Positions 18,341 through 34,606 of a DNA stretch of 42,992 nt are shown in pieces. Source of the DNA: Phreatobacter sp. (GTDB taxonomy: Bacteria; Pseudomonadota; Alphaproteobacteria; Rhizobiales; Phreatobacteraceae). Position numbers and translations under genes: made by a program. The DNA lies in contig NZ_JAUYFA010000111.1 in the NCBI RefSeq assembly GCF_030691135.1, positions 1-42,992 on the forward strand, in the 5' to 3' direction. Numbering within the stretch: position 1 is the first letter of the stretch; every line of letters begins with the position of its first letter. The notes under the pieces were generated by a model. It saw nothing but the letters and a program-made list of their open reading frames with translations. It was not told where the DNA came from and ran no database searches.

Positions 18341-20260
18341 TCAAAGCGGCGCCGTCATCCGCTTCAGCCAGGGACGGTCGGCGCCAGTGACGCGCCCCTC
18401 CAGCAGGTTCCAGGTCCGCTTGTGATAAGCGTCCAGCCATTGCCGCTCCGCCGTGGTGAGCAGGTTCGTCACGATGGCGCGGCGGTCGAAGGGGCAGAAG
18501 GTGATCGTCTCGAATTCCAGGAAGCCGGGCTTGGCGCTCTCGGTGACCACGATCAGATTTTCCAGACGGATGCCATGGGAGCCGGTCTCGTAGAAGCCGG
18601 GCTCGTTGGACAGGATCATGCCGGGCTCGAGTGGGACCTGCGACAGGGGCGAGATGCGCGCCGGCCCCTCATGCACGCCGAGATAGACGCCAACCCCGTG
18701 GCCGGTGCCATGGTCGAAGTCGAGGCCAGCCTGCCAGAGCGCGCGGCGGGCGAAACCGTCGATGGCGATGCCGCCCGTGCCCTTGGGAAAGCGGGCGGTG
18801 GCGACCGCGATATGACCCTTGAGGACCAGGGTGTAGTGCTCCCTGAGACGCTTCGGCACACCGCCCACGGCGATAGTGCGGGTGATGTCGGTGGTGCCGT
18901 CCAGATATTGAGCGCCGGAATCGACGAGGAGGAACGTGCCCTTTTCGACCTTCCGTTCGGTTGCCGGCGAGGACCGGTAATGGACGATGGCGCCGTTCGA
19001 GCCGGCACCGGCGATAGTGGTGAAGCTGGCACCGCGATGGAGTGCATCGGCGCCGCGGATCTCCTCCAGCTTCGCCATGACGGCGAGTTCGCCCTGGCCG
19101 ACCGCCTCACGGTCGACCCAGTGGAGGAAGCGTGCCATGGCGGCGCCGTCGCGGGCATGCGCCTTGCGGGTACCCGCGAGTTCCACCCGGTTCTTGCGCG
19201 CCTTGGGCAGGACCGATGGATCCTCGCCATGGATCAGGGTGGCGCCCGCCGCCGTCAGCCGGTCGGCGATCCAGGCGGTCGCGGTCTCCGGTTCGATGGT
19301 CACGGCCTTTCCGGACCATTCCTGCAGTCCCTCGGCGAAAGCCTCCAGGGGGCGCACGGTCACGCCGTTGCCGAGATGGGCGGTAAGGCCGGGCGTGAAC
19401 TTGGCCTGGTCGACGAACCAGGTGGCGTGGCCGTCAGCGGCTAGGATGAGGAAGCTCTGGACCAGTGGCGTCGCCGGGGTGTCGCCGCCGCGCACGTTGA
19501 GCAGCCAGGCGATGGAGTCGAGCTGGTTCAGCACGGCCGCTCTGGCGCCGCGCGCGGCAATCTCCTGACCGATGCGGGAACGCTTGTCGCCACTCGCCTC
19601 GCCGGCAAATTTCAACGGCTGGGCAAGGATGGCGGAGAATGGGTCACCGGGCTGACCGGTCCAGATCGCGTCGATCGGATTGCTGTCGAGCGCCACGAGC
19701 GCGGCACCCGCCTTGCCGAGCGCCTCGCGCCAGCGCTCGGCCTCCTTCACCGGCGTGATGCGCGGATCGAAACCGACGCGGTCACCCGCCTTGACCTTGC
19801 CGGCCAGCCAGTCGATGGCGGGCGGCTTCTTGAAGTGGCGGCATTCAATGACAGAGGCATCCGTCTCGGCCGGTGCCTGGAGCGTGTAGCGGCCGTCGAC
19901 GAAGAGTGCGGCCTCCTTCTGCAGGATAATGGCGAATCCGGCCGATCCGGAAAAGCCGGTGAGCCATTGCAGCCGCTCGGCGCGGGCCACGAGATATTCG
20001 CCCTGATGCTCGTCGGCACGCGGCACGAGGAAGGCCGCGAGCTTTTCCTTCTTCAGGATCTTCTGCAGCGCCGGGATGCGGGCGGCATCGCGGGTGAAGG
20101 CGGGCACCGGCACAGCAGCGAGTGCGGCGGCGATCACCTGCCTGTCTGCGGCGGTCGCATCGGGACAGGCGGCCGCCATCCAGCCGTCGGTATTCTTGCC
20201 CGGCGGGGTGGCGCGGACGCGGGCGAGGAGGGGCTTCAGGGCCTCGAGGTCGACGGGCAT
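18341..20260 (-). CDS. Aminopeptidase P family Xaa-Pro peptidase (M24B, long form)
   Basis: The 639-residue metallopeptidase has the long-form layout of creatinase-N domains followed by a pita-bread catalytic domain. Metal-site motifs are present: Asp residues in LVDSGAQYLDGTTDITRT, His in GTGHGVGVYLGVHEGP, and Glu residues in NEPGFYETGSHGIRLENL. It removes an N-terminal residue before proline. The first 60 or so residues are an extra segment before the usual start of the family (RIPALQKILKKEKLAAFLVP). ATG at 20260 is the plausible start. It is the last gene of the leftward operon, seven bases after the flavoprotein gene. In that company it may release amino acids from substrate-derived peptides, but a general housekeeping role is equally possible. 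Confidence 0.88.
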   Translation of the reverse strand: MPVDLEALKPLLARVRATPPGKNTDGWMAAACPDATAADRQVIAAALAAVPVPAFTRDAARIPALQKILKKEKLAAFLVPRADEHQGEYLVARAERLQWLTGFSGSAGFAIILQKEAALFVDGRYTLQAPAETDASVIECRHFKKPPAIDWLAGKVKAGDRVGFDPRITPVKEAERWREALGKAGAALVALDSNPIDAIWTGQPGDPFSAILAQPLKFAGEASGDKRSRIGQEIAARGARAAVLNQLDSIAWLLNVRGGDTPATPLVQSFLILAADGHATWFVDQAKFTPGLTAHLGNGVTVRPLEAFAEGLQEWSGKAVTIEPETATAWIADRLTAAGATLIHGEDPSVLPKARKNRVELAGTRKAHARDGAAMARFLHWVDREAVGQGELAVMAKLEEIRGADALHRGASFTTIAGAGSNGAIVHYRSSPATERKVEKGTFLLVDSGAQYLDGTTDITRTIAVGGVPKRLREHYTLVLKGHIAVATARFPKGTGGIAIDGFARRALWQAGLDFDHGTGHGVGVYLGVHEGPARISPLSQVPLEPGMILSNEPGFYETGSHGIRLENLIVVTESAKPGFLEFETITFCPFDRRAIVTNLLTTAERQWLDAYHKRTWNLLEGRVTGADRPWLKRMTAPL

Positions 20261-20267
20261 GGGGCTC

Positions 20268-21671
20268 TCAGGGTTCGGCGCTGACGAGGCGGGCCGCGTC
20301 GGCACCGGCGATGCGTCCCAGCACCACGGCGGTCAGTAGCCCGTTGCCGGAAAGATAGCCGGCGGCGTCCGGTCCCGACACCCCCACCGCTGCGCCTCCT
20401 GCCGCGAAAAGATTGGGGAGCGGGCGCCCGTCGGACCGCAGCACCCGCGCGGCGCCATCCACGGCGAGGCCGCCCTGGGTGTGGAAAAGCGCGCCGGTGA
20501 CCTTAACCGCCAGGTAGGGCGGCGCGAGATCGGGCAGGCCCGACCAGTCGCGGCCGAAGCCGTCGGTCGCTCGACGCCGCTTGAGATCGGCGATGGATTC
20601 GAGAGTCGCGCGAATCACTTGGCGCGGAATGCTGATCCGCGTTGCCAGTTCATCCATCGATTCCACTTGAAGAACGGCACCCGCCGCCTCGGCCCTGCGG
20701 AAGTCCTCGAACTGCCGGGCGATGCCGGCGATGCGCGCGTCGAAAAGGTCCCAGGCGATGCCACCGGGCTGGCCGAGCACGGCGAGCGCCGCCTCCGAAT
20801 AGCCGGAGGCTTCGTTCCAGAACCGCTCGCCTAACGCGTTGACCTGGCACCCGCCCTCCATGATCACCGCCCAGGAGACGAGGATGCCGTGGGGGTGGGC
20901 GACGGACCCATGGCCCTGATGACCGCTCATGTGGCGCAGCGCGGCGCCCAACTCCTGCCCCCAGATCACCGCGTCGCCCTGGTTGCCGGGATGGCCGAAA
21001 TAGAGCGCGTCCTTCAGCGCCGGGATGTGCTCGGCAACGAGGGTCTTGTTGCCGCCGTAACCGTTGCAGGCGAGGACGAGGGCGTCGCAGCCGATGCGTT
21101 CCTCCGACCCGTCGGGGCGCGCCACCACCAGGCCCCTGACACGCCCGTCCGGCGCGGCGACGAGGGCCGTGACATGGGCGGCGCCGACGATGTCGATGCC
21201 GGCGGCTTCCGCCGCGGCGCGCAGGCGGTCGACGAGTTCGGCTCCCGACCGCGAAGCGAGACCGTGCATGCGCCGGGCGGAATGGCCGGGATAGGAGAAG
21301 TCGGCGATCACCGTGAAGGCGAGGCCGTGGCGTTCGGTCAGCCAGTCGATGGCCGGGCCGGCGCCCTGCGTCACGGTGGCGAGCACCTCCGGGTCGGCCG
21401 CGCCATGGGCCTTGGCCTGGATGTCGCGAGCGAAAGACGCCGCGCTGTCGGCGATGCCGGCCGCCCGCTGCGCCGCGGTGCCGGCGGCGGGGATGAGGCC
21501 CGCCGAAAGGGCGGTGGAGCCTTGCGGGAGCGCGTCGCGCTCGAAGACCACCGCGTCGACGCCGGCCTCCTTCGCCGCCAGCGCCGCGCAGAGCCCGGCC
21601 GCCCCGCCGCCGACGATGGCGACCGGCACGGTCAGGGCGAAGGGGAGATCGTCGGTCAGGATGCGGGACAT
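20268..21671 (-). CDS. FAD-dependent dehydrogenase/reductase of the fumarate reductase-succinate dehydrogenase flavoprotein class
   Basis: The 467-residue protein has an N-terminal Rossmann motif (VAIVGGGAAGLCAALAAKEAG), STALSAGLIPAAG, a capping domain, and the C-terminal FAD element PNLFAAGGAAVGVSG followed by YLSGNGLL. This is the architecture of fumarate/urocanate reductases, 3-ketosteroid dehydrogenases and tricarballylate dehydrogenase (TcuA). All of these add or remove hydrogens across a C-C bond next to a carbonyl or carboxylate. No signal peptide or heme-binding part is present, so it is cytoplasmic and needs an unknown electron partner. ATG at 21671 has TGAGGA five bases before it. 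It lies between the cysteine hydrolase (seven-base gap) and the aminopeptidase. The substrate is inferred only from context. Confidence 0.8.
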   Translation of the reverse strand: MSRILTDDLPFALTVPVAIVGGGAAGLCAALAAKEAGVDAVVFERDALPQGSTALSAGLIPAAGTAAQRAAGIADSAASFARDIQAKAHGAADPEVLATVTQGAGPAIDWLTERHGLAFTVIADFSYPGHSARRMHGLASRSGAELVDRLRAAAEAAGIDIVGAAHVTALVAAPDGRVRGLVVARPDGSEERIGCDALVLACNGYGGNKTLVAEHIPALKDALYFGHPGNQGDAVIWGQELGAALRHMSGHQGHGSVAHPHGILVSWAVIMEGGCQVNALGERFWNEASGYSEAALAVLGQPGGIAWDLFDARIAGIARQFEDFRRAEAAGAVLQVESMDELATRISIPRQVIRATLESIADLKRRRATDGFGRDWSGLPDLAPPYLAVKVTGALFHTQGGLAVDGAARVLRSDGRPLPNLFAAGGAAVGVSGPDAAGYLSGNGLLTAVVLGRIAGADAARLVSAEP

Positions 21672-21678
21672 GGGGTCC

Positions 21679-22275
21679 TCACCCGCCAATCTCCGCAATC
21701 AGCTCGGCCACGGTGGCGATCCGCGCCACCGGCTTCAACCCGGCGATCGCCTCGTCATGGACCTTCGGCGAGAAAGCGGCGCAGCCATCGGCGATGACGG
21801 TCACGTGGAAGTCGCGGACATGGGCGTCGCGCACCGTCGAGGCGACGCCGCCATTGGTGACGATGCCGCAGGCGAGAAGCGTCTCGATGCCAGCCTTCTT
21901 CAGCACCCATTCGAGCCGCGACATGTAGAAGGCGGAATAGGCGACCTTCTCCACCTTGATGTCGACGGGCTGCAGCGCATCCACCGTGTCGTGGCCCCAG
22001 GAGCCGGGCACGAAGTCGCCCTTCGCGAGGAAGGGACGGAGCTGCTTCAGGTGGTCGGAGATGAAGGGCTCGCCGCCCTTGCCAGGCACCAGGGTAAAAT
22101 GGGTCGAGACGATCCAGCCGCCCCTGGCCCGGATCAGATCCGCCAGCGGCTTCAGGCGCTCGGGGAGCGCGGCGATCTCGGGTGCGGACTGCCGCGCCCG
22201 GCCATAGGCGCCGTCGGGGTGGAGGAAGTCGTTCTGCAGGTCGCAGACGAGCAGCGCGGTACGGGCGAGATCCAT
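21679..22275 (-). CDS. Isochorismatase-fold cysteine hydrolase (amidohydrolase type)
   Basis: The 198-residue protein has the cysteine hydrolase triad: Asp in LLVCDLQNDF, Lys in KVEKVAYSAFY and Cys in LLACGIVTNGGVASTVRDA, with the cis-peptide GIVTN. The family includes nicotinamidase, N-carbamoylsarcosine amidase and maleamate amidohydrolase, all of which release ammonia from small amides. It overlaps the hyuA stop by one base (TGATG), so it is tightly coupled to HyuA/HyuB. That pairing is seen in creatinine degradation, where N-methylhydantoinase feeds N-carbamoylsarcosine amidase. ATG at 22284 would add three residues; 22275 is preferred from family alignment. I am confident of the fold, but the substrate is unknown. 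Confidence 0.85.
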   Translation of the reverse strand: MDLARTALLVCDLQNDFLHPDGAYGRARQSAPEIAALPERLKPLADLIRARGGWIVSTHFTLVPGKGGEPFISDHLKQLRPFLAKGDFVPGSWGHDTVDALQPVDIKVEKVAYSAFYMSRLEWVLKKAGIETLLACGIVTNGGVASTVRDAHVRDFHVTVIADGCAAFSPKVHDEAIAGLKPVARIATVAELIAEIGG

Positions 22276-24320
22276 CAGGCGCATTCCAGCACGAGGTTGC
22301 CGAAGCGGTCGACGCGCGCCCGCTGGCCGGGCGGCACGAGAATCGTGGCGTCGGGCTGTTCGAGTACGGCCGGGCCCTCCACCACGGCCTCGACCGGCAG
22401 GTCGAGGCGGGAGAAGACCGCCGTCTCGCGCCAGCCGCCGAACCAGACGGACCGGCTGCCGGTGCGCGCCTTGGCCCAAGAGGCGGAGGCCTCCGGCGCC
22501 AGCGCTGCGAGGTCGATGGCCGGACGGCGGCCGATGGCGGTGGTCCTGAGGTTGACGATGCGGATTCCGAGGCCCGGCAGCAGGCGGGAAAAGGCCCGCG
22601 AATAGGCTGCCTCGAAGGCCTTGCCGACGATGGCCGCGGTGATGCCGGTGCGGCCCTCGGTCAGTGTCACCGGCAGCGGCACGGCGACAGTATGGGTCTG
22701 ACCGAGATAGTGCATGTCGAGCTCATAGGTGACGTCGATCCGCTCGACGGTGAGGCCGGCGCCGGCGACAACGGCATGGGCGGCGGCCCCCTCCTCCGCC
22801 ATGCGGCGGTCGAGGGCTCCCGCGTCGAGGCTGCCAAGGACGAGGTTCAGTGTCTGCACCTGGTCGTGGCGGATATCGGCCATGACGCAGCCCATGGCCG
22901 AGGTGACACCGGGAAATCGCGGCACCAGCGCCGCTTTTAGGCCGATATCGGCGATCAGCGCGCCGGCATGCAGCGCGCCGCCGCCGCCGAAGGGCACGAA
23001 GGCGAAAGTCCCGGGATCGTGGCCGCGCTCCACCGAGACAAGGCGGATGGCGCCGGCCATACGCGCATCGGCGATGCGCACGACCGCCTCGGCCGCCGCT
23101 TCCGGCGTGAGGCCGAGCGGTTCGCCGACATGGCGGGCGAGCGCCCGCCGCGCCGCCTCGACGTCGAGCCGCTGGAGCTTGCCGCCGATGGGACGATCGG
23201 CATTGATGCGGCCAAGGACGATGTTCGCGTCGGTGAGCGTCGGGCGGTCGTTGCCCTGGCCATAGGCGACGGGACCCGGGCGCGAGCCCGCGCTTTCGGG
23301 CCCGACCTCGAGAAAGCCGCCGCGGTCGACGCGGGCGATGGAGCCGCCCCCGGCGCCGATCGTGGTGATCTCGATCATCGGCGAGCGGATGACGAGGCCG
23401 AAATCGATGGTGGTCTGGGCGGCCAGCGCGGCCTCGCCGCCGGCGATCAACGACACGTCGAACGATGTGCCGCCGAGATCGCCGGTGATGATGTCGGGAT
23501 AGCCGGCAGCGGTGGCGATGGCCGCCGCGGCGATGACGCCGGCAGCAGGGCCGGAGAGAGCGGTGCGCACCGGCAGGCGTCGGGCGGTCGCCGTCGACAT
23601 GACGCCACCGTTGGACTGGACGATGTGGAAGGCGCCGGCAAAGGCCTCGCCCGCCAGCGCCGCTTCCAGCTTGGCGAGATAAGAGCCGACCACGGGCTGC
23701 AGATAGGCGTTGAGGGCGGTGGTCGAGGCGCGCTCGAACTCGCGGATCTCCGGCAGGATCTCGGAAGAGACCGAGACATGTTCGTTCGCCCAGACGGCGC
23801 GGGCGGCCGCGGCCGCGGCCCTCTCGTTGGCGGGATTGGCATAGGCGTTGACGAAGACGACGGCGAGCGCCGTCGCGCCCGCGGCGACCAGGGCCCGCGC
23901 CGCGGCGGCGACCTCCGCCGGGTCCACCGCCTGGCGCACGGTGCCGTCGGCCAGGGTCCGCTCGGCCACCTCGACGCGCAGGTCCCGGTCGGCGATGGGG
24001 GTGAAATCGCCCCACAGGCCCCAGGTGTTGCGGCGGTCGCGGCGGCGCATTTCGAGAACGTCGCGGAAGCCGGCCGTGGTGATAACGCCGATGCGCGCGC
24101 CCTTGCGCTCCAGCAGGGCGTTGGTGCCCACCGTCGTGCCATGGACGATGGATCCGAGGTCGGACAATGCGCCGAAGGTCTTCAGCCCCTCCAGAAACCC
24201 GACCGCCTCGTCGCCGCGGTTGGACGGGACCTTGGCGGTGCGGAACGTGCCGGTCGCCTCGTCCAGGAAGAACAGATCGGTGAAGGTGCCACCGACATCG
24301 ACGCCGACGAGGGTGGTCAT
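22275..24320 (-). CDS. hyuA: Hydantoinase A / 5-oxoprolinase alpha-type subunit
   Basis: The 681-residue protein is an ASKHA-fold ATPase subunit. The N-terminus TTLVGVDVGGTFTDLFFLDE is the phosphate-binding loop, and NALLERKGARIGVITTAGF and GDLGGTSFDVSLIAGG are hallmark stretches of the hydantoinase/oxoprolinase family. With HyuB it forms an ATP-dependent enzyme that opens cyclic amides or imides such as 5-oxoproline or N-methylhydantoin. Related acetone-carboxylase and acetophenone-carboxylase subunits share the fold but have additional partners, which are not seen here. ATG at 24320 overlaps the hyuB stop codon (ATGA). The length is within the normal range. Confidence 0.9.
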   Translation of the reverse strand: MTTLVGVDVGGTFTDLFFLDEATGTFRTAKVPSNRGDEAVGFLEGLKTFGALSDLGSIVHGTTVGTNALLERKGARIGVITTAGFRDVLEMRRRDRRNTWGLWGDFTPIADRDLRVEVAERTLADGTVRQAVDPAEVAAAARALVAAGATALAVVFVNAYANPANERAAAAAARAVWANEHVSVSSEILPEIREFERASTTALNAYLQPVVGSYLAKLEAALAGEAFAGAFHIVQSNGGVMSTATARRLPVRTALSGPAAGVIAAAAIATAAGYPDIITGDLGGTSFDVSLIAGGEAALAAQTTIDFGLVIRSPMIEITTIGAGGGSIARVDRGGFLEVGPESAGSRPGPVAYGQGNDRPTLTDANIVLGRINADRPIGGKLQRLDVEAARRALARHVGEPLGLTPEAAAEAVVRIADARMAGAIRLVSVERGHDPGTFAFVPFGGGGALHAGALIADIGLKAALVPRFPGVTSAMGCVMADIRHDQVQTLNLVLGSLDAGALDRRMAEEGAAAHAVVAGAGLTVERIDVTYELDMHYLGQTHTVAVPLPVTLTEGRTGITAAIVGKAFEAAYSRAFSRLLPGLGIRIVNLRTTAIGRRPAIDLAALAPEASASWAKARTGSRSVWFGGWRETAVFSRLDLPVEAVVEGPAVLEQPDATILVPPGQRARVDRFGNLVLECA

Positions 24321-25969
24321 GCCTTCGCTCCGGTCACATAGCCGAGCCGATGATCGCGCGCGGTCGCCGCCGGATCGCGCCCGGCGGGATCGCCGAAGCC
24401 GCCGCCGCCCGGCGTCTCCAGCCTGACACGGCCGCCCTGGCCGAGCTTCACCCCGGTGACCTTGGAGGCCATCGGCGGGGTCCCGGTGACGCCGCCATCG
24501 GTCCACGTGAACCGGTTGAGAGCCCCCTCCCCGCCGCCATTGACGCCGAAGGGCGCAAAGCGGCCGCGTTCGCCGAGCAGGAAGACGTCGGCCCCGCGCG
24601 GGTCCAGCACCTCGATCTCGTAGATGGCACCGAGGCCGCCGCGATGGGCGCCCAAGCCAGCAGAATCGGGCCGCAGCGCCCATTGCGTGAACAGGATGGG
24701 ATAGGCGGCCTCGAGGATCTCCACCGGCGGCATGGTGGCGGTCGAGATCGGGTTGTTGGCGTGGTTGAGCCCGTCGCTTTCGGGATTGCCGCCGAGACCG
24801 CCGCCGAAGAAGTTGAACATCACCCAGCGGCTGCCGTCGGCGCGGTGGCCAGCCATGGACAGGGCGTTGATCGTGCCGAAGGGGCCGGCGGTGGCGCGAT
24901 CGGGCACGGCCTTCGCGAGGGCGCCGAAGACGACGCCGATGAGGCGGAGGATCGTCTCCGTATAGCCGGCCATCGGCTTGGGCGCCCCGGCGCCCAGCAG
25001 GGTCGTGCCCGGCACCACGAAGGTGATGGGCTTGAGGCAGCCCGCATTGGCCGGCACATCCGTGAAGACGTGCTTGAGGGCGACATAGCAGGCCGCGATC
25101 GTCGTCGGCACGGAGATGTTGATCGGGCCGGCGCAGGGCGGCGAGGAGCGCGAGAAGTCGAGCACCATGGTCTCGCCGGCGATGGTGAGGTCAAGCGCTA
25201 CCGTCAGCCGCGCGTCGACGATGCCGTCATTGTCGAGATAGTCCTCAAAGGCATAGGTGCCGTCCGGCAGCGCGGCGATCGCCTCGCGCATCAGCGCCTC
25301 GGCGCGGGCGGAAAAGGCGACGAAGGCCTGGTCGATGGTGGCGGCGCCATACTGGTCGAGGAGGGCGTTGAGCCTGATCTCGCCGAGGTCCAGCGCGTTG
25401 AGCTGACCGTTGAGGTCGCCCCAGTTCGAATTCGGCAGGCGGGAATTGGCGGCGAGGATGTCGAGTATGTCCTGCCGGGTTTCGCCAGCCGAAACGAGCT
25501 TCACCACAGGAATCAGCACGCCTTCCTGGAAACTCTCGGTCGCCACCGGATTGTAGCCGCCGGGCACGTTGCCGCCGATGTCCAGCCAGTGACCGGCCGA
25601 GGCGAGCCAACAGAACAGCGCCCCGTCACGGAAGACCGGACGTACAAGCCGGAAATCGTTGAGATGGGTGCCGCCGGCATAGGGGTCGTTGAAGATGAAG
25701 GTGTCGCCCGGGGAAAGCCCGCCCTGCGCCTTCACCTTGTCGATCACCGCCTTCACCGCAAAGGCCATGGCGCCGACGAAGATCGGCAGGCCCTTGGTGC
25801 CCTGGACCAGCGTGTCGCCGGTCTCGCGGTGGTAGAGGCCATGGCAGGCGTCGCGCGCCTCGGCGATGATCGGGTTGAAGGCGGAGCGGTAGAGCGTCGC
25901 GTCCATCTCGTCGGCGATCTGCTCCAGCCGCCCCTTGAGGACCGCGAGCGTGACGGGATCGAGCGTCAT
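24317..25969 (-). CDS. hyuB: Hydantoinase B / 5-oxoprolinase beta-type subunit
   Basis: The 550-residue partner of HyuA opens with DPVTLAVLKGRLEQIADEMD, the standard HyuB start, followed by RDACHGLYHRETGDTLVQG, DTFIFNDPYAGGTHLNDF and a glycine-rich C-terminus (LETPGGGGFGDP). These motifs mark the catalytic subunit of ATP-dependent oxoprolinase/hydantoinase enzymes. It overlaps the lyase gene upstream by ATGA (25966-25969) and hyuA downstream by ATGA, so the three genes are translated as a block. Stereo- and substrate specificity cannot be read from the sequence. Confidence 0.9.
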   Translation of the reverse strand: MTLDPVTLAVLKGRLEQIADEMDATLYRSAFNPIIAEARDACHGLYHRETGDTLVQGTKGLPIFVGAMAFAVKAVIDKVKAQGGLSPGDTFIFNDPYAGGTHLNDFRLVRPVFRDGALFCWLASAGHWLDIGGNVPGGYNPVATESFQEGVLIPVVKLVSAGETRQDILDILAANSRLPNSNWGDLNGQLNALDLGEIRLNALLDQYGAATIDQAFVAFSARAEALMREAIAALPDGTYAFEDYLDNDGIVDARLTVALDLTIAGETMVLDFSRSSPPCAGPINISVPTTIAACYVALKHVFTDVPANAGCLKPITFVVPGTTLLGAGAPKPMAGYTETILRLIGVVFGALAKAVPDRATAGPFGTINALSMAGHRADGSRWVMFNFFGGGLGGNPESDGLNHANNPISTATMPPVEILEAAYPILFTQWALRPDSAGLGAHRGGLGAIYEIEVLDPRGADVFLLGERGRFAPFGVNGGGEGALNRFTWTDGGVTGTPPMASKVTGVKLGQGGRVRLETPGGGGFGDPAGRDPAATARDHRLGYVTGAKA

Positions 25970-27625: not shown

Positions 27626-28358
27626 GGGACGCCCCCTTCTGCAGGCGGCCGGCCGCGCCGTGGCCGAGATAGGCCTCGACGACGGCGGGATTGCCGACCA
27701 CCTCGGCCGGCGTGCCGGCGCCGATGAGGCGGCCGTTGGCGAGGACATGGACATGTTCGCACAGGCTCATCACCGCCTGCATGACATGCTCGATCATCAG
27801 GATCGTCACCCCGGATTCACGGATCGACCGGATCACCGGGACGATGTCGCGGATTTCGGAAGGGTTGAGCCCGGCCAGCACCTCGTCGAGCAGAAGGAGG
27901 CGAGGCCCGGTCGCCAGCGCCCGGGCGAGTTCGAGCCGCTTGCGGCCGGCGACCGTCAGCGAGGAGGCCGGGCGCCCGAGATCGGTGAGGCCGACCCTGT
28001 CCGCCACCGCCTCGGCATGGGCCATGGCCTCGGCCCGGTGGGGACAGCGCAGATAGGCGCCGACCGCGATGTTCTCCAGCACCGACAGGCCGGCAAAAGG
28101 CTGGACGATCTGGAAGGTGCGGGCGATGCCGAGGACCGCGAGGCTTTCCGGCGTGCGGCCGGTGATGTCTGCGCCGGCGAAGAGCACGCGTCCGGCGCTC
28201 GGTGTCTGGAATCCGGAGATCAGCGTGAAGAGCGTGGTCTTGCCGGCGCCGTTCGGGCCGATGAGCCCGGTGATCGAGCCCTCGGGCACGGTGAGGCTGA
28301 CGTCGCTGACGGCGACGAGCCCGCCGAACCGCTTGGTGAGGCCCTGAACTTCCAGCAT
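27618..28358 (-). CDS. livG: Branched-chain amino acid-type ABC transporter ATPase LivG
   Basis: The 246-residue ATPase begins MLEVQGLTKRFGGLVAVSDV. It has Walker A GPNGAGKTTLF, the LivG-typical GIARTFQIVQPF, Walker B LLLLDEVLAGLNP and the ending TILMIEHVMQAVMSLCEHV. The signature motif is degenerate: SLTVAGRKRLELARAL in place of the LSGGQ pattern (most LivG proteins read LPYGQQRRLEIARAL). ATG at 28358 shares one base with the livM stop codon (TGATG). It pairs with LivF as the heterodimeric motor. Confidence 0.92.
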   Translation of the reverse strand: MLEVQGLTKRFGGLVAVSDVSLTVPEGSITGLIGPNGAGKTTLFTLISGFQTPSAGRVLFAGADITGRTPESLAVLGIARTFQIVQPFAGLSVLENIAVGAYLRCPHRAEAMAHAEAVADRVGLTDLGRPASSLTVAGRKRLELARALATGPRLLLLDEVLAGLNPSEIRDIVPVIRSIRESGVTILMIEHVMQAVMSLCEHVHVLANGRLIGAGTPAEVVGNPAVVEAYLGHGAAGRLQKGASHG

Positions 28359-29359
28359 CAGCGCCCTCCCCTGGTCCGCAGGAGGCCGATCAGGCCGCGC
28401 GGCGCGAAGGCGATGACGACGACCAGCAGCAGCCCGTAGACAACGAGGTCGACGCCCGGAACGGCGGAGCCGAAGGCCGCATGGATGACGGTCTTCGCCG
28501 CCTCGCCGAGTCCGATCAGCGCAACGGCGCCGATGAGCGGGCCGAAAACCGTGCCGATGCCGCCGACGATGGGCGCCAGCAGCGCCTCCACCGAGATCCA
28601 GGCGCCATAGGCGATGTTGGCGTCCACATAGAGGAACTTCTGGGTATAGAGCGCACCGGCCACGGCCGTGACGGCGGCCGAGAGCGTGATGGCCTTCAGC
28701 TTGACGGTCAGCGTGTCGACGCCGAGAGCGCGGGCGGCGTCCTCGTTTTCCCTGACAGCCACGAGCCAGGCGCCGAAGCGCGAGCGCTCTAGCAAGCGGT
28801 TGAGAATGAGCACGACAGCAACGAAGGCCAGTGCGAGGTAGAAGAATGCGGCGGGAGCGTCGAACTGCATCTGGCCGAAGCCGATGCGAAGCGGAACGAG
28901 CGTGCCGGCGGCGCCGCCGGTGATCGGGGTGGCATTGGCGAGGATGCGGAAGACCTCGGCGAAGGCGAGCGTGACCAGGGCGAAATAGGAACCGCGCAGG
29001 CGGGCGCGGAAGGCGAGCAGGCCGATCAACGCCCCGACCAGACCGCCGAGCGCCATGGCGAGCGGCAAGGCCACCCAGGCATTGACGCCGTAGCGGGTCT
29101 GCAGGACGGCCTGGGCATAGGCGCCGGTGCCGAAGAAGGCGGCGTGCCCGAAGGAGAACTGGCCGCCATAGCCGCCGGCGATGTTCCAGCCCTGTGCCGC
29201 CAGGGTGATGATCAGGATGAAGATCATCAGGTTGTAGAAGGTATTGGGTCCGGCGAAGAGGCCCGCCCCGACGAGGAGCGGCACGGCGAGCGGCAGCGCC
29301 GCAAGGGCGGCTATGGCGATGAGGATCGGGCGATAGGCTGCGAAGGTCCCGGAACTCAT
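28358..29359 (-). CDS. livM: Branched-chain amino acid-type ABC transporter permease LivM
   Basis: The 333-residue polytopic membrane protein has hydrophobic segments throughout, including AYRPILIAIAALAALPLAVP at the N-terminus. It has the family motif AGGYGGQFSFGHAAFFGTGAY and the cytoplasmic coupling region SRFGAWLVAVRENEDAARAL, which contacts the ATPases. It ends APRGLIGLLRTR, typical of LivM. It overlaps livH by four bases (ATGA) at its start and livG by one base at its end. Confidence 0.93.
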   Translation of the reverse strand: MSSGTFAAYRPILIAIAALAALPLAVPLLVGAGLFAGPNTFYNLMIFILIITLAAQGWNIAGGYGGQFSFGHAAFFGTGAYAQAVLQTRYGVNAWVALPLAMALGGLVGALIGLLAFRARLRGSYFALVTLAFAEVFRILANATPITGGAAGTLVPLRIGFGQMQFDAPAAFFYLALAFVAVVLILNRLLERSRFGAWLVAVRENEDAARALGVDTLTVKLKAITLSAAVTAVAGALYTQKFLYVDANIAYGAWISVEALLAPIVGGIGTVFGPLIGAVALIGLGEAAKTVIHAAFGSAVPGVDLVVYGLLLVVVIAFAPRGLIGLLRTRGGR

Positions 29360-30237
29360 GCCTTCGCCCCGAACAGGCCGGTCGGGCGGAACAGCAGGAC
29401 CAGGATGAAGATGAGGAAGATGCCGATCTGGCCGAGGCTTTCGCCGAGATAGAGACCTGACAGGCTCTCGACGACGCCGATGACGAGGCCGCCGACCAGC
29501 GCCCCGGCGATCGATCCCATGCCGCCGAGCACGACGACGGTGAAGGCAACGAGGACAAAGGCGTTGCCGACGCGCGGATTGACGTAGAAGGACGGCATGA
29601 GCAGGCAGGCGGCCACCGCCAGCGTCGCCGCACCGAGGCCGAAGGTGACGGCATAGATGTGGTTGACGTCGATGCCGACGAGGGAGGCGCCGAGCTTTTC
29701 CTTCGCCACCGCGCGGATCGCCTTGCCGGTGTCGGTGAGCGCGAGGATCGCCCAGAGCGCGGCCGCGACGATCAGCGCGACGCCGAAGCCGATGACGCGC
29801 GGCAGCGACAGGAGCGCGAAGCCGGTATCCACCACCGAGAAGGAATAGTCGAGGGTCAGCGTCCGCGTGTCGGAGCGGAAGATGGCGAGGAGCAGGTTCT
29901 CCAGCACGATCGACAGGCCGAGCGTCACCAGGAGGATGGCACCGTCGTCGTTGCGGCTCGCCGGCGAGATGACGAAGCGCTGCAGGCCGTAGCCGAAGGC
30001 GAAGAACAGCGGCGTCAGCGGCAGGATGGCGAGGTAGGGATCGATCCCGAAGCCGATATGGGCCACCAGGACGGCAAACATCGCCAGCGTCAGCATGGCG
30101 CCATGCGCGAAATTGATGATGTGGAGCACGCCGTAGACGAGCGTCAGGCCGAACGCGACGAGGGCGTAGACGGCGCCGGTGAGGAGACCGTTGAGCACGG
30201 CCTCAAGCACGATCTGCGGCGGATAAGATCTGAACAC
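29356..30237 (-). CDS. livH: Branched-chain amino acid-type ABC transporter permease LivH
   Basis: The 293-residue permease has several membrane helices and the LivH motif GAVYALVAFGLTLVYGVLHI then NFAHGAMLTLAMF near the N-terminus. The coupling region TDTGKAIRAVAKEKLGASLV is present, and so is the end segment LLFRPTGLFG. The start is GTG at 30237 with GAGG about eleven bases away, a rather weak site. That would fit lower expression than the binding protein upstream. A stable hairpin separates it from the binding-protein gene. It partners LivM. Confidence 0.93.
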   Translation of the reverse strand: MFRSYPPQIVLEAVLNGLLTGAVYALVAFGLTLVYGVLHIINFAHGAMLTLAMFAVLVAHIGFGIDPYLAILPLTPLFFAFGYGLQRFVISPASRNDDGAILLVTLGLSIVLENLLLAIFRSDTRTLTLDYSFSVVDTGFALLSLPRVIGFGVALIVAAALWAILALTDTGKAIRAVAKEKLGASLVGIDVNHIYAVTFGLGAATLAVAACLLMPSFYVNPRVGNAFVLVAFTVVVLGGMGSIAGALVGGLVIGVVESLSGLYLGESLGQIGIFLIFILVLLFRPTGLFGAKA

Positions 30238-30318: not shown

Positions 30319-31536
30319 TCAGCCCGTGACGGGGAAGACGGCCTTGGCGTCGGCAAAGGTGTCTGGGAAGATCACCTTGATGTCGCCGTTCTGGACCTGG
30401 GTGTTGACCGGGGCGGCGGCGGTGTTCTGGCCGTTCTCGAACTTCGTCGGACCGTAGGGCATGATGTGGTCCGCGAAGGTGGAGGTGGCCATGGCTTCGA
30501 TGATCTTGATGCGATCGCGCGAACCCGAACGCTCGATGGCATCGGCGACCAGACGCACCGATGAATAGTTCAGCGGCACGTTGTAGAGCCAGAAGCGGCC
30601 CGTCGCCTCGACCTGCCGGCGCAGTTCGGCCGTCTTCGGCTTGCGCGGATCGGCCCAGTGGTTGCAATCCATGACGTTGTTGGCAGCGTCGGGGAACTCC
30701 CGGACGAAGCGGAAGTTCGAGGCCGCACCGTTGAGCACCGCATAGATGCCCTTGGGGCGGATGCGCTGCTGCTGCATCGTCCGGGCGAGCAGCACGAATT
30801 CGCTGTAGTAGCTCGACGGGATGACGATATCCGGGTTGAGCGCCCGGATGCGCAGCGCGACATTGGACATGTCGCGGGCCGGCGTCGGATGCGGGATGGT
30901 CTCGAGGATCTGGAAGCCGAGCGCCGAGAGGCGGTCGTTCATCAGCTTGGCGAGGCCCGAGCCGAACAGGCCGTCCTCGTGGACCAGCACCACCGTCCGT
31001 GCCGGCTTGCCGGCGGCATCGTTGAGCTTCACCAGGTTGTCGATGGCGGCGCGGGTCACGGCGCCGAAGCCGGGGCCGAAGCGGAAGGTGTTCTTCAGGC
31101 CGCGCGAGACGATCTGGTCGGAGACGCCGACATCGACCGCATAGGCGATGTCATAACGGGATGCGGCCTGCGAGGCGGCGAGGCAGATCGGCGAGGCGAA
31201 GCCGCCGACGATGGCGGAAACGCCCTCGGCATGCATCTTCTCGACCTCCTGCGAGCCCGCCTCAGGGCTGGAGCGGGCATCGCCGAAGACCATCTCGATC
31301 ATGGCGCCGCCGAGCGACTTGATGCCGCCGGACTTGTTGATGTCGTCGATGGCGAGCTGGGCGCCGAGGCGGCCATACTCGCCGTCCTGGGCGAGCGCAC
31401 CGGTCACCGGCTGGAGGATGCCGAGCTTCACGGGGGCGGCCTGCGCCCGCACGAGGCCCGGTGCCGAGAGGATTGCGGCGCCAGCGGCGCCGGACTTCAG
31501 GAGGCTGCGTCGCGTCGTTTCATTCCAGGCGGTCAT
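30319..31536 (-). CDS. Periplasmic substrate-binding protein of the Liv-type ABC transporter (Tat-exported)
   Basis: The 405-residue protein has a twin-arginine signal, TRRSLLKSG followed by a short hydrophobic AAGAAILSAPGLVRAQA with a likely cut after AQA. The mature part begins APVKLGILQPVTGALAQDGE, the periplasmic-binding-protein type 1 fold used by amino acid/amide transporters, and keeps LVHEDGLFGSGLAKLMNDRL and IRALNPDIVIPSSYYSEFVLL. It captures the nutrient in the periplasm for LivHMGF. ATG at 31536 has GGAGA about ten bases away. It is the first gene of the operon, with a 100-base leader after the GntR-type gene. The ligand is unknown; the enzymes downstream point to an amide, imide or acidic compound. 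Confidence 0.92.
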   Translation of the reverse strand: MTAWNETTRRSLLKSGAAGAAILSAPGLVRAQAAPVKLGILQPVTGALAQDGEYGRLGAQLAIDDINKSGGIKSLGGAMIEMVFGDARSSPEAGSQEVEKMHAEGVSAIVGGFASPICLAASQAASRYDIAYAVDVGVSDQIVSRGLKNTFRFGPGFGAVTRAAIDNLVKLNDAAGKPARTVVLVHEDGLFGSGLAKLMNDRLSALGFQILETIPHPTPARDMSNVALRIRALNPDIVIPSSYYSEFVLLARTMQQQRIRPKGIYAVLNGAASNFRFVREFPDAANNVMDCNHWADPRKPKTAELRRQVEATGRFWLYNVPLNYSSVRLVADAIERSGSRDRIKIIEAMATSTFADHIMPYGPTKFENGQNTAAAPVNTQVQNGDIKVIFPDTFADAKAVFPVTG

Positions 31537-31588: not shown

Positions 31589-31607
31589 TCTTGTCGTTCT
31601 GCCGAAG

Positions 31608-31629
31608 CCGCCAGCCGTGAGGCTGGCGG
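31608..31629 (-). terminator. Hairpin after the GntR-type regulator gene
   Basis: CCGCCAGCC (31608-31616) and GGCTGGCGG (31621-31629) form a perfect 9-bp stem with loop GTGA, eight bases beyond the regulator stop codon. T-rich sequence is lacking, so termination may be partial, allowing some read-through into the transport operon. Confidence 0.55.
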
Positions 31630-31636
31630 GATCCTG

Positions 31637-32443
31637 TCAGTCGTTGGCGCCGGCGCCGTTGATGCCGACGCCCATGCGCAGCCGTTCCACCGGGGACCAC
31701 AGCCTGTCGCCGCCGGAATCGATGCGGACCAGATCCATCTGGAAGGAGTAGCGGTCGGGCCGGTAGAAGGCCGTCAGATGCTCGATGCCGCGACGCTTCA
31801 CGTCGAAGACGACGCGGTGCAACGAAAGCAGCGGCGCGCCGATGTCGACGCCGAGCGCCTCGGCGATGTCCGGACCGGCGAGAGCGGCGGAAATCGTCTG
31901 AGTGGCGCGATCGACCTTGACGCCGGAGCGCTCGATGAGGGTCAGCAGCGGCTGCACGCCGAGCTCCGCCTCGGTGAAGGTCGTGCCGATCCGCAGCGGC
32001 ACGTAGGTGACGAGATAGGAGAAGGGCTCGCCGTCGATGATGCGCACGCGGACCGAGCGTTGTACCCGCTCGCCATTGTCGAGCTTCAGCGCCTCGGCGA
32101 CTTCCGGTGTGGCTTCGACATAGCCGAACTGCAGAAGCCGTACATCGGTGGACCGGCCCATTTCGACCAGATGGGCCAGCGCGTTCGAGAGGTCTGCGAC
32201 GATCGGCCGCTTGATCATCCGCGCCGTGATGAAGGTTCCGGCGCCCGGCCGGCGCGATATCAGCCCTTCACGCTCGAGCTCCGCCAGCGCCCGGCGAATT
32301 GTCACGCGCGAGACGTCGTGGAGATCCGCGAGGTCCGGTTCGGACGGCAGGCGGGTGCCCGGCGTCAGTTCCCCTGACGATATTCGGTCACGCAATGTCA
32401 GGTAGACCCGCCGCGTCTTGGATGTTTCGATGGCTTCAGCCAT
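31637..32443 (-). CDS. GntR family regulator, HutC subfamily (UTRA ligand domain)
   Basis: The 268-residue regulator has an N-terminal winged HTH with the GntR signature: YLTLRDRISSGELTPGTRLP, then DLADLHDVSRVTIRRALAEL and GLISRRPGAGTFI. The C-terminal UTRA domain (about 95-245) carries QRSVRVRIIDGEPFSYLVTY and EHLTAFYRPDRYSFQMDL. UTRA domains bind small effectors such as urocanate or sugar phosphates. ATG at 32443 has GAGGGAG eight bases upstream; a start at 32524 would add an unconserved tail. It lies between the transport/catabolic operon and the divergent hydratase pair, so it is the obvious candidate to control both in response to a pathway metabolite. Confidence 0.9.
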   Translation of the reverse strand: MAEAIETSKTRRVYLTLRDRISSGELTPGTRLPSEPDLADLHDVSRVTIRRALAELEREGLISRRPGAGTFITARMIKRPIVADLSNALAHLVEMGRSTDVRLLQFGYVEATPEVAEALKLDNGERVQRSVRVRIIDGEPFSYLVTYVPLRIGTTFTEAELGVQPLLTLIERSGVKVDRATQTISAALAGPDIAEALGVDIGAPLLSLHRVVFDVKRRGIEHLTAFYRPDRYSFQMDLVRIDSGGDRLWSPVERLRMGVGINGAGAND

Positions 32444-32571
32444 GAGCTCGCTCCCTCGCAGGCCGGTTGTCACACCGGGGCGCATTGGCGCAGACCCCTT
32501 TTTCGGCAGTGCGACGGTTTGCATTTGTCTGCCGGCCTGTTCGATGGATAGAGATAGAGAGTTTTCAAGAT

Positions 32572-32591
32572 TTGTCTATCCTATGATACAA
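32572..32591. promoter_or_regulatory. Candidate GntR/HutC operator TTGTCTATCCTATGATACAA
   Basis: An imperfect 20-bp inverted repeat with TTGT/ACAA ends lies in the AT-rich centre of the 182-bp region between the regulator and the divergent hydratase. HutC-type operators typically carry TTGTATATACAA-like symmetric cores. It would overlap a possible -10 TACAAT (32587-32592), about 33 bases before the hydratase GTG, consistent with repression. Only the position and the symmetry support this. Confidence 0.45.
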
Positions 32592-32625
32592 TGTTGTCAC
32601 GTCAAGCGTCGTCGTGGAGCGAAGA

Positions 32626-34023
32626 GTGCAATTGCCCGCCACCCTGTTCGACAGGCTCTGGGATCGTCACGTGGTGGCACGCCGGGCCGACGGCCTGTCG
32701 CTGTTGTGGATCGACCGCCATTTCGTCCATGAAGGCTCGCATCACGCCTTCGGACAGATCGCGGCACGGGGTGCGCCGGTGGCGCGGCCGGACCTCACCT
32801 TCGGTGTGGCCGATCACTATGTCCCGACGCGCGGCCGCGGCGGCCCCGTGCCGGACGCCTCCATCGCGCGGATGGTCGCGCAACTCGGCGCCAATACCGC
32901 CGCCCATCACATCACGCTGTTCGGGCTCGACGACAGGCGGCAGGGCATCGTCCATGTGACGGGAACCGAGCAGGGCCTGACCCTGCCGGGCCTGACCGTC
33001 GTCTGCGGCGACAGCCACACCTCCACCCACGGGGCCTTCGGCGCCTATGCCTTCGGGATCGGCGCCTCCGAGGTCGCCCATGTGCTGGCGACACAGACGC
33101 TGTGGCAGAAGAAGCCGAAGCGGATGCGGATCAGCGTCGAGGGCGAGACCGCGCCCGGCATCACCGCCAAGGACATCATGCTCACCGTCATTGCCGCCAT
33201 CGGCGCCGACGGGGCAGCCGGCCATGCCATCGAATATGCCGGCTCGGCCATCCGTGCGCTGTCGATGGAGGGCAGGATGACCCTCTGCAACATGTCCATC
33301 GAGGCCGGCGGGCGCTGCGGGATGGTGGCGCCCGACGCCACCACCATCGCCTATCTCAAGGGCCGGCCCTTCGCACCCGAAGGGGCGCTGTGGGACATGG
33401 CGGTGGCGGACTGGGCCGGGCTCGTCAGCGACGCCGACGCCGACTTCGACCGCGAGGTGAGCCTCGCCGCGGCACAGATCGCACCGACCGTCACCTGGGG
33501 CATCAGCCCGGAACAGGCCCTGCCGATCGACGCCCACGTGCCAGATCCCGACCGCATCGCCGACCCGATCAAGGCGGCAGCGGCGCGCGACGCCATCGAC
33601 TACATGGCCCTGACGCCTGGACAGGCGCTGCAATCGATCGCCATCGACCGGGTCTTCATCGGCTCCTGCACCAATGCGCGCATCGAGGATCTGCGCGCCG
33701 CGGCGCAGGTCCTCGCGGGCCGCAAGGCGGTGGTGCCGGGGCTCGTCTCGCCGGGCTCCTCGCTGGTCAAGCGGCAGGCCGAGGACGAGGGCCTCGCCCG
33801 CATCTTCACGGAGGCCGGGCTGGAATGGGTGGATTCGGGCTGTTCCATGTGTGTCGGCATGAATGGCGACATCGTCCAGCCGGGGGAGCGCTGCGCCTCG
33901 ACCACCAACCGCAATTTCAAGGGCCGCCAGGGGCCGGGCGCGCGCACCCACCTGATGTCGCCGGCCATGGCAGCAGCAGCCGCGGTCACCGGTACGCTCA
34001 CCGACGTCAGGCGGTTCGCATGA
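32626..34023 (+). CDS. Aconitase-family hydratase large subunit (LeuC-like)
   Basis: The 465-residue protein has the length and iron-sulfur ligands of isopropylmalate isomerase large subunits: Cys348 in GSCTNARI, and Cys406 and Cys409 in SGCSMCVG. It also has [21 protein letters not shown] and the substrate-loop region [13 protein letters not shown] at 32626 is chosen because GGAG lies six bases before it and the product then starts [16 protein letters not shown] like LeuC; GTG at 32614 is the alternative. The pair is divergent from a GntR regulator and away from other leucine genes. A catabolic hydratase acting on a maleate, citraconate or dimethylmaleate-type substrate is therefore a fair alternative to leucine synthesis. 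Confidence 0.88.
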
Positions 34024-34601
34024 GGCCCTTCACAAGCGATACCGCCGCGATGCTGAAGCTGCCGGTGGCCAATATCGACACCGACCAACTGATTCCCGCG
34101 CGCTTCATGAAGGAGCCGCGCCAGCCGGAGGGCTATGGCCGCTTCCTCCTGCACGACCTCGCCGCCAAGGGCACGGCCCCCGCCCCTCGCGCCGGCCAGA
34201 CCGTCCTCGTCGCGCGGCGCAATTTCGGCTGCGGTTCGTCGCGCGAGGCCGCGGTCTATGCGCTGGCGGATTTCGGCTTCCGCGCCGTCATCGCCCCGAC
34301 CTTCGGTGACATCTTCGCGTCCAACTGCGTCAAGAACGGCGTCGTGCCGGCGACGGTGAGCGAGGAGGACGCGGAGAGGCTGCTCGATACGGCCAACCTG
34401 CCGGTCACCGTCGACCTCGCGGCGCTGACCATCGCCTGCGGCAATGTCGTGGTGCCCTTCACCATCGATCCGGTCTGGCGCACCCAGCTCCTCAACGGCT
34501 GGGACGACATCGACCTGACGCTCGCCGAAGGCGATGCCATCGCCGCCTTCACGGCACGCGATGGCGGCGCAAGGCCCTGGGCTGTGCCGCGGCGCGTTTG
34601 A
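34020..34601 (+). CDS. Aconitase-family hydratase small subunit (LeuD-like)
   Basis: The 193-residue swivel-domain subunit contains [32 protein letters not shown] and [16 protein letters not shown], all classical LeuD motifs. It completes the active site of the large subunit. ATG at 34020 overlaps the large-subunit stop codon (ATGA), so the subunits are made together. It is slightly shorter than E. coli LeuD (201). Function follows that of the large subunit: isopropylmalate isomerase, or a maleate-type hydratase in the neighbouring catabolic pathway. Confidence 0.88.
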
Positions 34602-34606
34602 GATTG

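Follow-up and report, generated by a model that had tools for sequence, protein, structure and literature searches.

Which compound would be imported and broken down by the products of the long leftward gene run in a 42,992-nucleotide stretch of Phreatobacter sp. (contig NZ_JAUYFA010000111.1, analysed whole and called the window here)? The run encodes a substrate-binding protein (SBP) with a LivHMGF transporter, an ICL/PEPM-family lyase, HyuB, HyuA, an isochorismatase-fold protein (ISO) and a flavoprotein, and a GntR regulator and a divergent LeuCD-like pair lie upstream. An earlier note, made from the sequence letters, had read this set as a chain of ring opening, deamidation, dehydrogenation, hydration and cleavage acting on a cyclic imide, lactam or hydantoin. 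With moderate confidence we propose that the locus serves to break down an alkylated cyclic imide to pyruvate and a short acid, a reading in which we infer the chemistry, the order of steps, the regulation and the substrate. As far as gene families can tell, the one locus does bring together a ring opener, a half-amide hydrolase and a diacid hydratase. Of the original chain, the single conserved pathway locus and the membership of LeuCD stand, and succinate-type dehydrogenation, Cys-type deamidation and aminopeptidase P as a member have to be given up.

Conservation of the locus

The locus is one conserved unit that recurs, well beyond chance, in many families. A first set of 40 neighbourhoods was centred on the lyase gene (ICL) and drawn from a 249-genome sample of the order, in which 114 genomes have a match; the 44 best matches other than the window itself were considered, of which four were skipped, and three of the 40 are short contigs (L044, L070 and L071). 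HyuA or HyuB, at at least 55% identity, is found in 36 of the 40, both in 33, and ISO also in 33. The synteny of hyuAB, isochorismatase-fold, FAD, ICL/PEPM and LeuCD genes, which the earlier note had named among the points to check, is conserved. Among the 36 core loci, 35 have a LeuC of one of two clades (the window type in 22, a second type, LeuC2, in 13), L058 alone having neither; the flavoprotein is present in 27, SBP (at least 45% identity) in 26 and an MmgE/PrpD gene in 11. The four neighbourhoods outside the core are L075, with an ICL of 51% identity and HyuB only as a 67-residue fragment, and L077, L078 and L079, whose ICL homologs of 45–48% identity have no HyuAB and no ISO nearby.

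The second set was centred on ISO and consists of the best 80, named and with ISO at least 65% identical, of 510 stretches that each hold some relative, ortholog or not, at tblastn E≤1e-3. HyuA or HyuB accompanies ISO in 76 of these loci, ICL in 63, LivF in 62, the flavoprotein in 51, LeuC of either type in 41, SBP in 40 and MmgE/PrpD in 34, many of the 80 being truncated. Among the carriers are Azospirillum (A. brasilense included), Methylobacterium, Microvirga, Rhizobium, Roseomonas and Hoeflea. A phylum-wide sample of 398 genomes gave ISO in 8 (E≤1e-60), too thin a yield to take further. The two sets overlap in genomes (e.g. L086/L040), and repeated genomes therefore enter the alignment counts of 123 (ISO), 109 (ICL) and 85 (flavoprotein) used below, from which 2, 3 and 1 low-identity rows, respectively, had been dropped before counting.

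The unit is also found on plasmids, in Azospirillum, Sulfitobacter, Neorhizobium, Roseomonas, Tistrella, Paraburkholderia and Variovorax. The leanest set seen, that of Paraburkholderia, reads GntR-SBP-LivHMGF-LeuC2-LeuD2-HyuB-HyuA-ISO-ICL. Tistrella carries complementary parts on two plasmids: pTM2 has HyuAB-ISO-LeuCD together with acyl-CoA dehydrogenase and CoA-transferase genes, and pTM1 has GntR-SBP-LivHMGF-PrpD-ICL and the flavoprotein. Within the 4.2-Mb host genome, five further Hydantoinase_A loci (contigs C114, C18, C109, C16 and C68) encode proteins 30–44% identical to the window HyuA, and no ISO or ICL was found in the short flanks taken around them. The nearest named relative of the window ISO, 96% identical, belongs to a Phreatobacter metagenome-assembled genome.

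The LeuCD pair and its promoter region

By sequence comparison the divergent LeuCD is paralogous to the leucine enzyme, and its functional membership of the pathway locus, which the earlier note had supposed, is supported. Its LeuC exceeds the cut-off of the leuC model TIGR00170 (648.8 versus 560.25 bits), and the same genome encodes another LeuC that scores higher (796.6 bits versus 648.4 for the window copy). A copy of 774–817 bits is present in all 41 genomes searched, the window's included, and six further LeuC places score 590–657 bits. Four of the six belong to operon loci, namely those in G000, G019 and G013 and one of the pair in G021. Window-type operon LeuCs are 67–93% identical to the window protein and 30 genuine copies 54–59%. 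In a tree of a 52-row subsample, the genuine group (99/99) and LeuC2 (100/100) are well supported and the window-type operon proteins form a single, weak group (66/43); a long-branch warning applies between the genuine and LeuC2 groups. An ordinary leucine-pathway LeuCD was rejected on the higher score of the other copy, the separate identity range and the tree group. LeuC2, about 36% identical to the window LeuC, takes its place in 13 of the 36 core loci and mostly lies between LivF and the ICL gene; LeuC2 and LeuD2 exceed the PRK00402 and LeuD/DmdB family cut-offs.

LeuC starts about 90 bases from the GntR gene, on the opposite strand, and the near-palindrome TTGTATCATAGGATAGACAA lies between them. 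It is the sole match in the genome to YTGTATN8AKACAR, a count that carries little weight since the reversed control pattern matches the genome 3 times; within the window, 0.05 matches are expected by shuffling. The weight of this predicted operator rests on its position, the reversed control matching the genome more often. In 17 of 41 loci (10 in the window's genus, 7 elsewhere), the region upstream of GntR holds a palindrome with at most one mismatch to YTGTATN8ATACAR, where 0.05 are expected from base shuffles, a count that is descriptive because the consensus was built from the loci counted.

The lyase

The lyase is predicted from its sequence to be a 2-alkyl- or 2,3-dialkylmalate lyase. 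In an alignment of 109 sequences (the window and 108 homologs of at least 49% identity, three non-operon hits of 45–48% having been dropped), the K, C and H of the catalytic-Cys loop KRCGH of the ICL/PEPM family are invariant, and all 109 have VEGGxTP where the five solved PrpBs aligned have TEFG. The score against the PrpB model TIGR02317 is 289.5 bits, below the cut-off of 354.4. In an Azospirillum ortholog the final 107 residues, which resemble structures 1zlp and 3fa3 in sequence, score 54.8 bits with petal death protein and 47.0 with dimethylmalate lyase, ahead of the best methylisocitrate lyase (45.2). A strict methylisocitrate lyase was rejected on these three grounds. A dimethylmalate-type lyase, one of the two kinds that the earlier note had named, agrees with the model score and the C-terminal segment, and is at odds with the full-length ranking given further below.

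The predicted ring opener, ISO and the transporter

HyuAB is predicted, by its domain content, to be an ATP-dependent cyclic amide ring opener. Its Hydantoinase domains are full-length (PF01968 over 1–290 of 291 positions, PF05378, and PF02538 over 1–519 of 519), and the nearest solved relative of both HyuA and HyuB is the N-methylhydantoinase 7hk5. The best NCBIfam hits are the caprolactamase models NF050156 and NF050157, whose scores of 479.5 and 282.4 bits fall below the cut-offs of 1000 each and place the proteins outside these families. Of the transporter, the nearest solved structure to SBP by sequence is 8wch (137 bits); the ligand could not be deduced from the structural relatives of SBP, and a full-text search on 8wch gave nothing.

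ISO belongs to the isochorismatase superfamily (PF00857, 133.6 bits), and its AlphaFold model (predicted local distance difference test, pLDDT, 91.7) confirms the fold in Foldseek (E 8e-15, probability 1.00), with 3kl2 and the triuret and biuret hydrolases as nearest neighbours, followed by RutB, YecD and maleamate amidohydrolase. It lacks the TxxC motif of the Cys amidohydrolases. The position of the nucleophilic Cys is Gly in all 123 aligned sequences, window included, and the motif TNGG is present in 122 of 122 homologs, two paralogs of 29–30% identity having been dropped. Counted by loci, 121 of 129 show the strict Gly motif; in L160 one residue of the motif differs and the Gly is retained, and the other seven are short contigs or non-core. 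An Asp and a Lys, which we take to be catalytic residues of the family, are invariant, and the alignment places the same Cys substitution in Escherichia coli YecD. Judged by its sequence, ISO cannot use the usual Cys mechanism, and of the isochorismatase-fold hydrolase first proposed the gene and fold remain without that mechanism. Dialkylmaleamates shed their amide with help from the neighbouring carboxylate, and such substrate-assisted loss could explain a Cys-less ISO. The Cys-to-Gly change tied to HyuAB offers a clean test of an isochorismatase fold working without its nucleophile.

The flavoprotein

The earlier note had likened the flavoprotein to TcuA and fumarate reductases that dehydrogenate succinate-type acids, and this assignment does not survive alignment. 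In fumarate reductase, the Arg of TTRDK is catalytic and that of NRLGGN binds the substrate; the corresponding segments of the flavoprotein are SGYSE and GYLSGN, and Tyr replaces both Arg in all 85 aligned proteins (the window and 84 homologs of at least 45% identity, one of 38% having been dropped) and in five more distant flavoproteins aligned. The TcuA model gives 157.7 bits against a cut-off of 369. A succinate-type dehydrogenase was rejected on the loss of both defining Arg residues. The Tyr pair brings ketosteroid dehydrogenases (KstD) to mind. Since dicarboxylate binding in the style of fumarate reductase is not to be expected, we place the flavoprotein on the neutral ring, before ring opening, where it probably acts to judge by these residues.

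On a plasmid of Sphingobium sp. TomTYG65 (L218), the flavoprotein gene keeps company with two 5-oxoprolinase genes and a gene for succinate-semialdehyde dehydrogenase, perhaps a lactam pathway with the same flavoprotein type.

Clusters with exchanged components

A plasmid search by flavoprotein returned 47 records, and 11 new loci were looked at. LeuC is present in nine of these (none in L215 and L218), and eight are flavoprotein clusters without close HyuAB: L212, L213, L214, L216, L219, L220, L221 and L222. Three of them are haloarchaeal (L214, L216 and L219, from Haloferax, Halorubrum and Natrinema) and combine the flavoprotein with an isochorismatase-fold protein, a dihydropyrimidinase-type amidohydrolase, LeuCD, a CoA-transferase and an HMG-CoA-lyase-like protein. 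The amidohydrolases of L214 and L216 score 250.6 and 262.2 bits against PRK13404, below its cut-off, and that of L219 is 74% identical to that of L214. Liv genes and two MmgE/PrpD genes are also found in L214 and L216, and Natrinema L219 has one MmgE/PrpD gene and an ICL/PEPM protein (16612–17502, minus strand) with KQCGH rather than KRCGH. In L212 (Acidiphilium), L213 (a Burkholderia plantarii plasmid) and L222 (Sphingobium V4), two PuuE-like genes stand with an isochorismatase-fold protein, LeuCD and the flavoprotein; L212 and L222 add an HMG-CoA-lyase-like protein and a CoA-transferase, and L213 adds ICL/PEPM with acyl-CoA dehydrogenase and CoA-transferase genes. L221 (Neorhizobium SOG26) joins one PuuE-like gene to Liv, ICL, LeuCD and flavoprotein genes, and L220 (Novosphingobium THN1) is similar to L222; neither L220 nor L221 yielded an isochorismatase-fold gene. 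An HMG-CoA-lyase-like gene and a CoA-transferase thus stand in place of or beside ICL/PEPM in L212, L214, L216, L219, L220 and L222. The isochorismatase-fold proteins of non-HyuAB clusters (L212, L213, L214, L216, L219 and L222) all six retain the canonical Cys (STSGC).

The PuuE-like proteins belong to the polysaccharide-deacetylase family, match the allantoinase PuuE model below its cut-off and presumably open rings, an assumption that we draw from the model name. Other clusters thus seem, from their gene families, to use unrelated cyclic amidohydrolases for the role given to HyuAB, which lends the ring-opening step of the earlier note some support. HMG-CoA-lyase-like enzymes cleave tertiary 3-hydroxyacyl-CoAs, and cleavage of this kind would require the carbinol carbon to bear an alkyl group, so that pyruvate or one of its homologues would be released. 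Three unrelated ring-opener families, an isochorismatase-fold hydrolase, several kinds of LeuCD and two kinds of C–C lyase meet around one flavoprotein type, for which a single chemical logic of ring opening, deamidation, hydration and cleavage is the most likely reason. We regard this exchange of components as the strongest evidence for the proposed pathway. One paper groups imidase, hydantoinase and dihydropyrimidinase as ring-opening relatives and cites an imidase hydrolysing maleimide (PMC4437985).

Proposed pathway and alternatives

In the pathway that we propose, SBP and LivHMGF would take up a small cyclic imide with at least one alkyl group, such as an alkyl- or dialkyl-succinimide or -maleimide. 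Where needed, the flavoprotein would dehydrogenate the saturated ring next to the carbonyl, and HyuAB would open the ring with ATP to a half-amide. Release of ammonia by ISO would then give a cis-unsaturated C4 diacid of the citraconate or dialkylmaleate type, which LeuCD would hydrate to a 2-alkyl- or 2,3-dialkylmalate for cleavage by the lyase to pyruvate (or a 2-oxoacid) and a short acid. GntR may control both transcripts from the single divergent promoter.

Several observations weigh against this pathway. At full length, the lyase is nearest to methylisocitrate lyases (211.5 bits; petal death protein scores 188.2 and dimethylmalate lyase 164.6), and a segment of its specificity region, close to the C-terminal stretch compared above, reads FSAG in the window's genus and FPGG in 96 of 109 homologs. 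ICL is not nearby in 17 of the 80 ISO-centred loci, five of which have full flanks (L104, L118, L133, L156 and L164), and in L104, L133 and L156 the gene directly after ISO encodes a molybdenum hydroxylase large subunit; such loci point to the possibility of several substrates for the HyuAB-ISO core. The Paraburkholderia set has no flavoprotein, which makes this component optional, and the Sphingobium flavoprotein of L218, 43% identical, lies beside HyuAB-family genes and a semialdehyde dehydrogenase with no LeuCD. Two LeuC paralogs, of 610 and 637 bits, one in G004 and one in G021, were found away from every operon fetched, so that paralogs of this kind extend beyond the operon. L212, one of the clusters without close HyuAB, encodes a protein 37% identical to HyuA some 7 kb away from the flavoprotein gene. 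The amidase relatives of ISO depend on a Cys that is absent in the HyuAB clusters, and among the clusters compared this loss goes only with HyuAB. In 6 of the 9 neighbourhoods from the window's genus, an MmgE/PrpD gene separates LivF from ICL, and it is missing from the window; supply of the operon type from elsewhere in the genome was rejected, as only a 30% paralog is present.

As the predicted substrate class we prefer an imide to a hydantoin or a lactam. In a hydantoin or cyclic-ureide route, HyuAB would open a 5-substituted hydantoin, ISO would remove the carbamoyl group, and LeuCD and ICL would process the skeleton later. N-methylhydantoinase as the nearest solved relative of HyuAB, the scores of the replacement ring openers with allantoinase PuuE and D-hydantoinase, the biuret, triuret and ureidoacrylate hydrolases among the fold neighbours of ISO, and Asp/Glu/hydantoin-racemase-family genes in 6 of 89 loci all speak for it, yet LeuCD hydration and ICL cleavage require a nitrogen-free diacid. 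No aminotransferase, ammonia lyase or other amino-acid deaminating enzyme was noticed among the identified recurring clusters of open reading frames and the annotated plasmid loci, though no dedicated search was made; we regard this route as unlikely because no step seen disposes of the remaining amino group. Less probable still is a lactam operon (2-pyrrolidone, oxoproline or similar) with LeuCD and ICL as unrelated housekeeping neighbours. Caprolactamase models are indeed the best hits of HyuA and HyuB, below cut-off, but LeuCD is a paralog that another clade replaces in other loci. The predicted operator lies in a region common to LeuCD and GntR, and where close HyuAB is absent LeuCD still occurs with the flavoprotein.

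The molybdenum hydroxylase genes raise the further possibility of an N-heteroaromatic, pyridine-type substrate, from which such an enzyme would make a cyclic imide tautomer (citrazinate or a methylated analogue) for HyuAB to open to an aconitate-type amide ahead of hydratase and lyase. A route from isonicotinate through citrazinate to cis-aconitamide would be the precedent, on which a full-text search brought up no paper. The hydroxylase stands next to ISO in three of the loci scanned, and in neither the window nor the annotated HyuAB plasmid loci (not all loci were searched for it), and cis-aconitate is already handled by ordinary aconitase; we consider this substrate as improbable as a lactam. 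HyuAB might also act as a carboxylase in the style of acetone or acetophenone carboxylase and build a diacid, given the common superfamily and the 303.6 bits of HyuA to the acetophenone carboxylase gamma model. No further carboxylase subunit was noticed beside HyuAB, without a dedicated search, and hydrolase families stand in for HyuAB in similar clusters, so that this role seems very improbable.

An alkylated imide is the most likely substrate class. As to its source, tetrapyrrole-derived maleimides are our guess: breakdown products of tetrapyrroles are the common natural dialkylmaleimides, and they are attractive both for that reason and because carboxylate-assisted amide loss could explain the Cys-less ISO. 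It is possible, if doubtful, that the clusters together represent a modular pathway of proteobacteria and haloarchaea for alkylated maleimides and succinimides derived from chlorophyll, haem and bilins, in which each of ring opener, hydratase and lyase has been swapped for an unrelated or distant enzyme and in which the HyuAB form, with its Cys-less ISO, relies on the carboxylate of the substrate.

Relation to known systems

Each enzyme is of a known family, and the assembly and the Cys-less form of ISO appear to be undescribed. The earlier note knew of no described operon with the full set, and we likewise found no description of one in the open-licence full-text literature, nor, among the matches listed there, any such operon under haematinic acid and maleimide breakdown or under lactams and hydantoinases.

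Partial precedents are nevertheless available. Nicotinate fermentation by Eubacterium barkeri ends with dimethylmaleate hydratase DmdAB followed by 2,3-dimethylmalate lyase. Our locus shares with it the succession of a LeuCD-family hydratase and an ICL/PEPM lyase, the scoring of LeuC2/D2 with the LeuD/DmdB family and that of the lyase segment with dimethylmalate lyase. It differs in that the diacid would come from an imide opened by HyuAB, and in that a B12 mutase and an enamidase were not noticed among the neighbours, for which no dedicated search was made. The hydratase of this fermentation is mentioned in one paper (PMC8651744).

The methylcitrate cycle (PrpD, AcnD/AcnB, PrpB) has in common with the locus the MmgE/PrpD gene of many relatives, an aconitase-family hydratase, a KRCGH lyase and, among solved structures, the methylisocitrate lyases as nearest to the full-length lyase; it differs in that the locus lyase falls below the PrpB cut-off with VEGG for TEFG, and in the addition of HyuAB and ISO. 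Cyclic-imide metabolism in Blastobacter proceeds through an imidase and a half-amidase. Ring opening to a half-amide and deamidation would be common to both, but the imidase there is metal-dependent, whereas here HyuAB, a Cys-less ISO, a dedicated transporter, a hydratase and a lyase are found. The N-methylhydantoin/creatinine pathway combines a HyuAB-type N-methylhydantoinase with N-carbamoylsarcosine amidohydrolase, again HyuAB followed by an isochorismatase-fold hydrolase; unlike it, the locus has an ISO without the Cys nucleophile, and LeuCD and ICL instead of sarcosine oxidation. Finally, CapAB of caprolactam degradation is presented as an ATP-dependent two-subunit cyclic amide hydrolase (PMC8453981), the type predicted for HyuAB, which falls below the CapA and CapB cut-offs and has LeuCD, ICL and ISO alongside.

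If the proposed pathway is correct, it would link cyclic-imide chemistry to central metabolism and give a function to genes annotated in many genomes as 'hydantoinase', 'cysteine hydrolase', 'LeuCD' and 'oxaloacetate decarboxylase/ICL'. The 'leuC/leuD' genes of such loci would then be misnamed as leucine genes, and a candidate recycling route for tetrapyrrole-derived maleimides would be at hand.

Gene order and neighbouring genes

Profile matches confirm the gene set, order and place that had been claimed for the leftward run, the GntR gene and the divergent LeuCD (Table 1). Several junctions in the run are overlaps of a few bases, their number being set by the choice of start codons, and gaps of 61 and 81 bases separate ICL from LivF and LivH from SBP. 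The aminopeptidase P gene, which had been counted as part of the run, is present as described; its linkage is confined to the genus (8 of the 40 ICL-centred neighbourhoods), on which ground it was rejected as a pathway member and probably lies outside the pathway.

Table 1. Features of the locus, with window coordinates, strand and supporting matches
Feature	Position	Strand	Basis
M24 aminopeptidase P, genus-specific neighbour	18341..20305	-	PF00557/PF16189/PF16188/PF01321
FAD_binding_2 flavoprotein, predicted dehydrogenase of cyclic substrate	20268..21698	-	PF00890
ISO, isochorismatase-fold protein without Cys nucleophile, predicted half-amide hydrolase	21679..22284 (or ..22275)	-	PF00857
HyuA, subunit of predicted ATP-dependent cyclic amide hydrolase	22275..24320	-	PF01968, PF05378, PF19278
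HyuB, subunit of predicted ATP-dependent cyclic amide hydrolase	24317..25969	-	PF02538, 564 bits
ICL/PEPM-family C–C lyase, predicted 2-alkyl/2,3-dialkylmalate lyase	25966..26850	-	PF13714; KRCGH present
LivF-type ATPase	26912..27625	-	PF00005
LivG-type ATPase	27618..28361	-	PF00005, PF12399
LivM-type permease	28358..29359	-	PF02653; synteny
LivH-type permease	29356..30237	-	PF02653; synteny
SBP, Peripla_BP_6 binding protein of Liv-type ABC (ATP-binding cassette) importer	30319..31536	-	PF13458, 155 bits
UTRA-domain GntR regulator	31637..32524	-	PF00392, PF07702
Predicted GntR operator TTGTATCATAGGATAGACAA in divergent GntR/LeuC promoter	32572..32591	.	near-palindrome, 20 bases
LeuC-like large subunit, predicted alkylmaleate hydratase	32614..34023	+	TIGR00170, 648.8 bits
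LeuD-like small subunit	34020..34601	+	PRK01641, 186.8 bits

The molybdenum hydroxylase genes lie at L104:10578–12998, L133:10643–12946 and L156:10610–12946, in loci where ICL is missing. RraA-like genes are found near them in L104 and L133, and one also follows ISO in L164; L080 encodes an old-yellow-enzyme-type protein. The molybdenum hydroxylase and the old-yellow-enzyme-type protein hint at further feeder steps.

Adjoining the aminopeptidase P gene is one for a Cache-domain methyl-accepting chemotaxis protein (16502–18205, minus strand), homologs of which, 66–96% identical, likewise flank aminopeptidase P in 8 of the 9 neighbourhoods from this genus (the remaining one is a short contig); this chemoreceptor may be linked to the operon. 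The reading frame directly after LeuD (34534–34887, plus strand) matches the YefM/Phd antitoxin families, scoring 83.6 bits with PRK11409 (below cut-off) and 38.7 bits with phd_fam (above). Further left, a 736-residue reading frame (10945–13155, minus strand), whose first start codon is possibly too early, ends in a histone-deacetylase domain, and the long N-terminal part before it matches no Pfam family.

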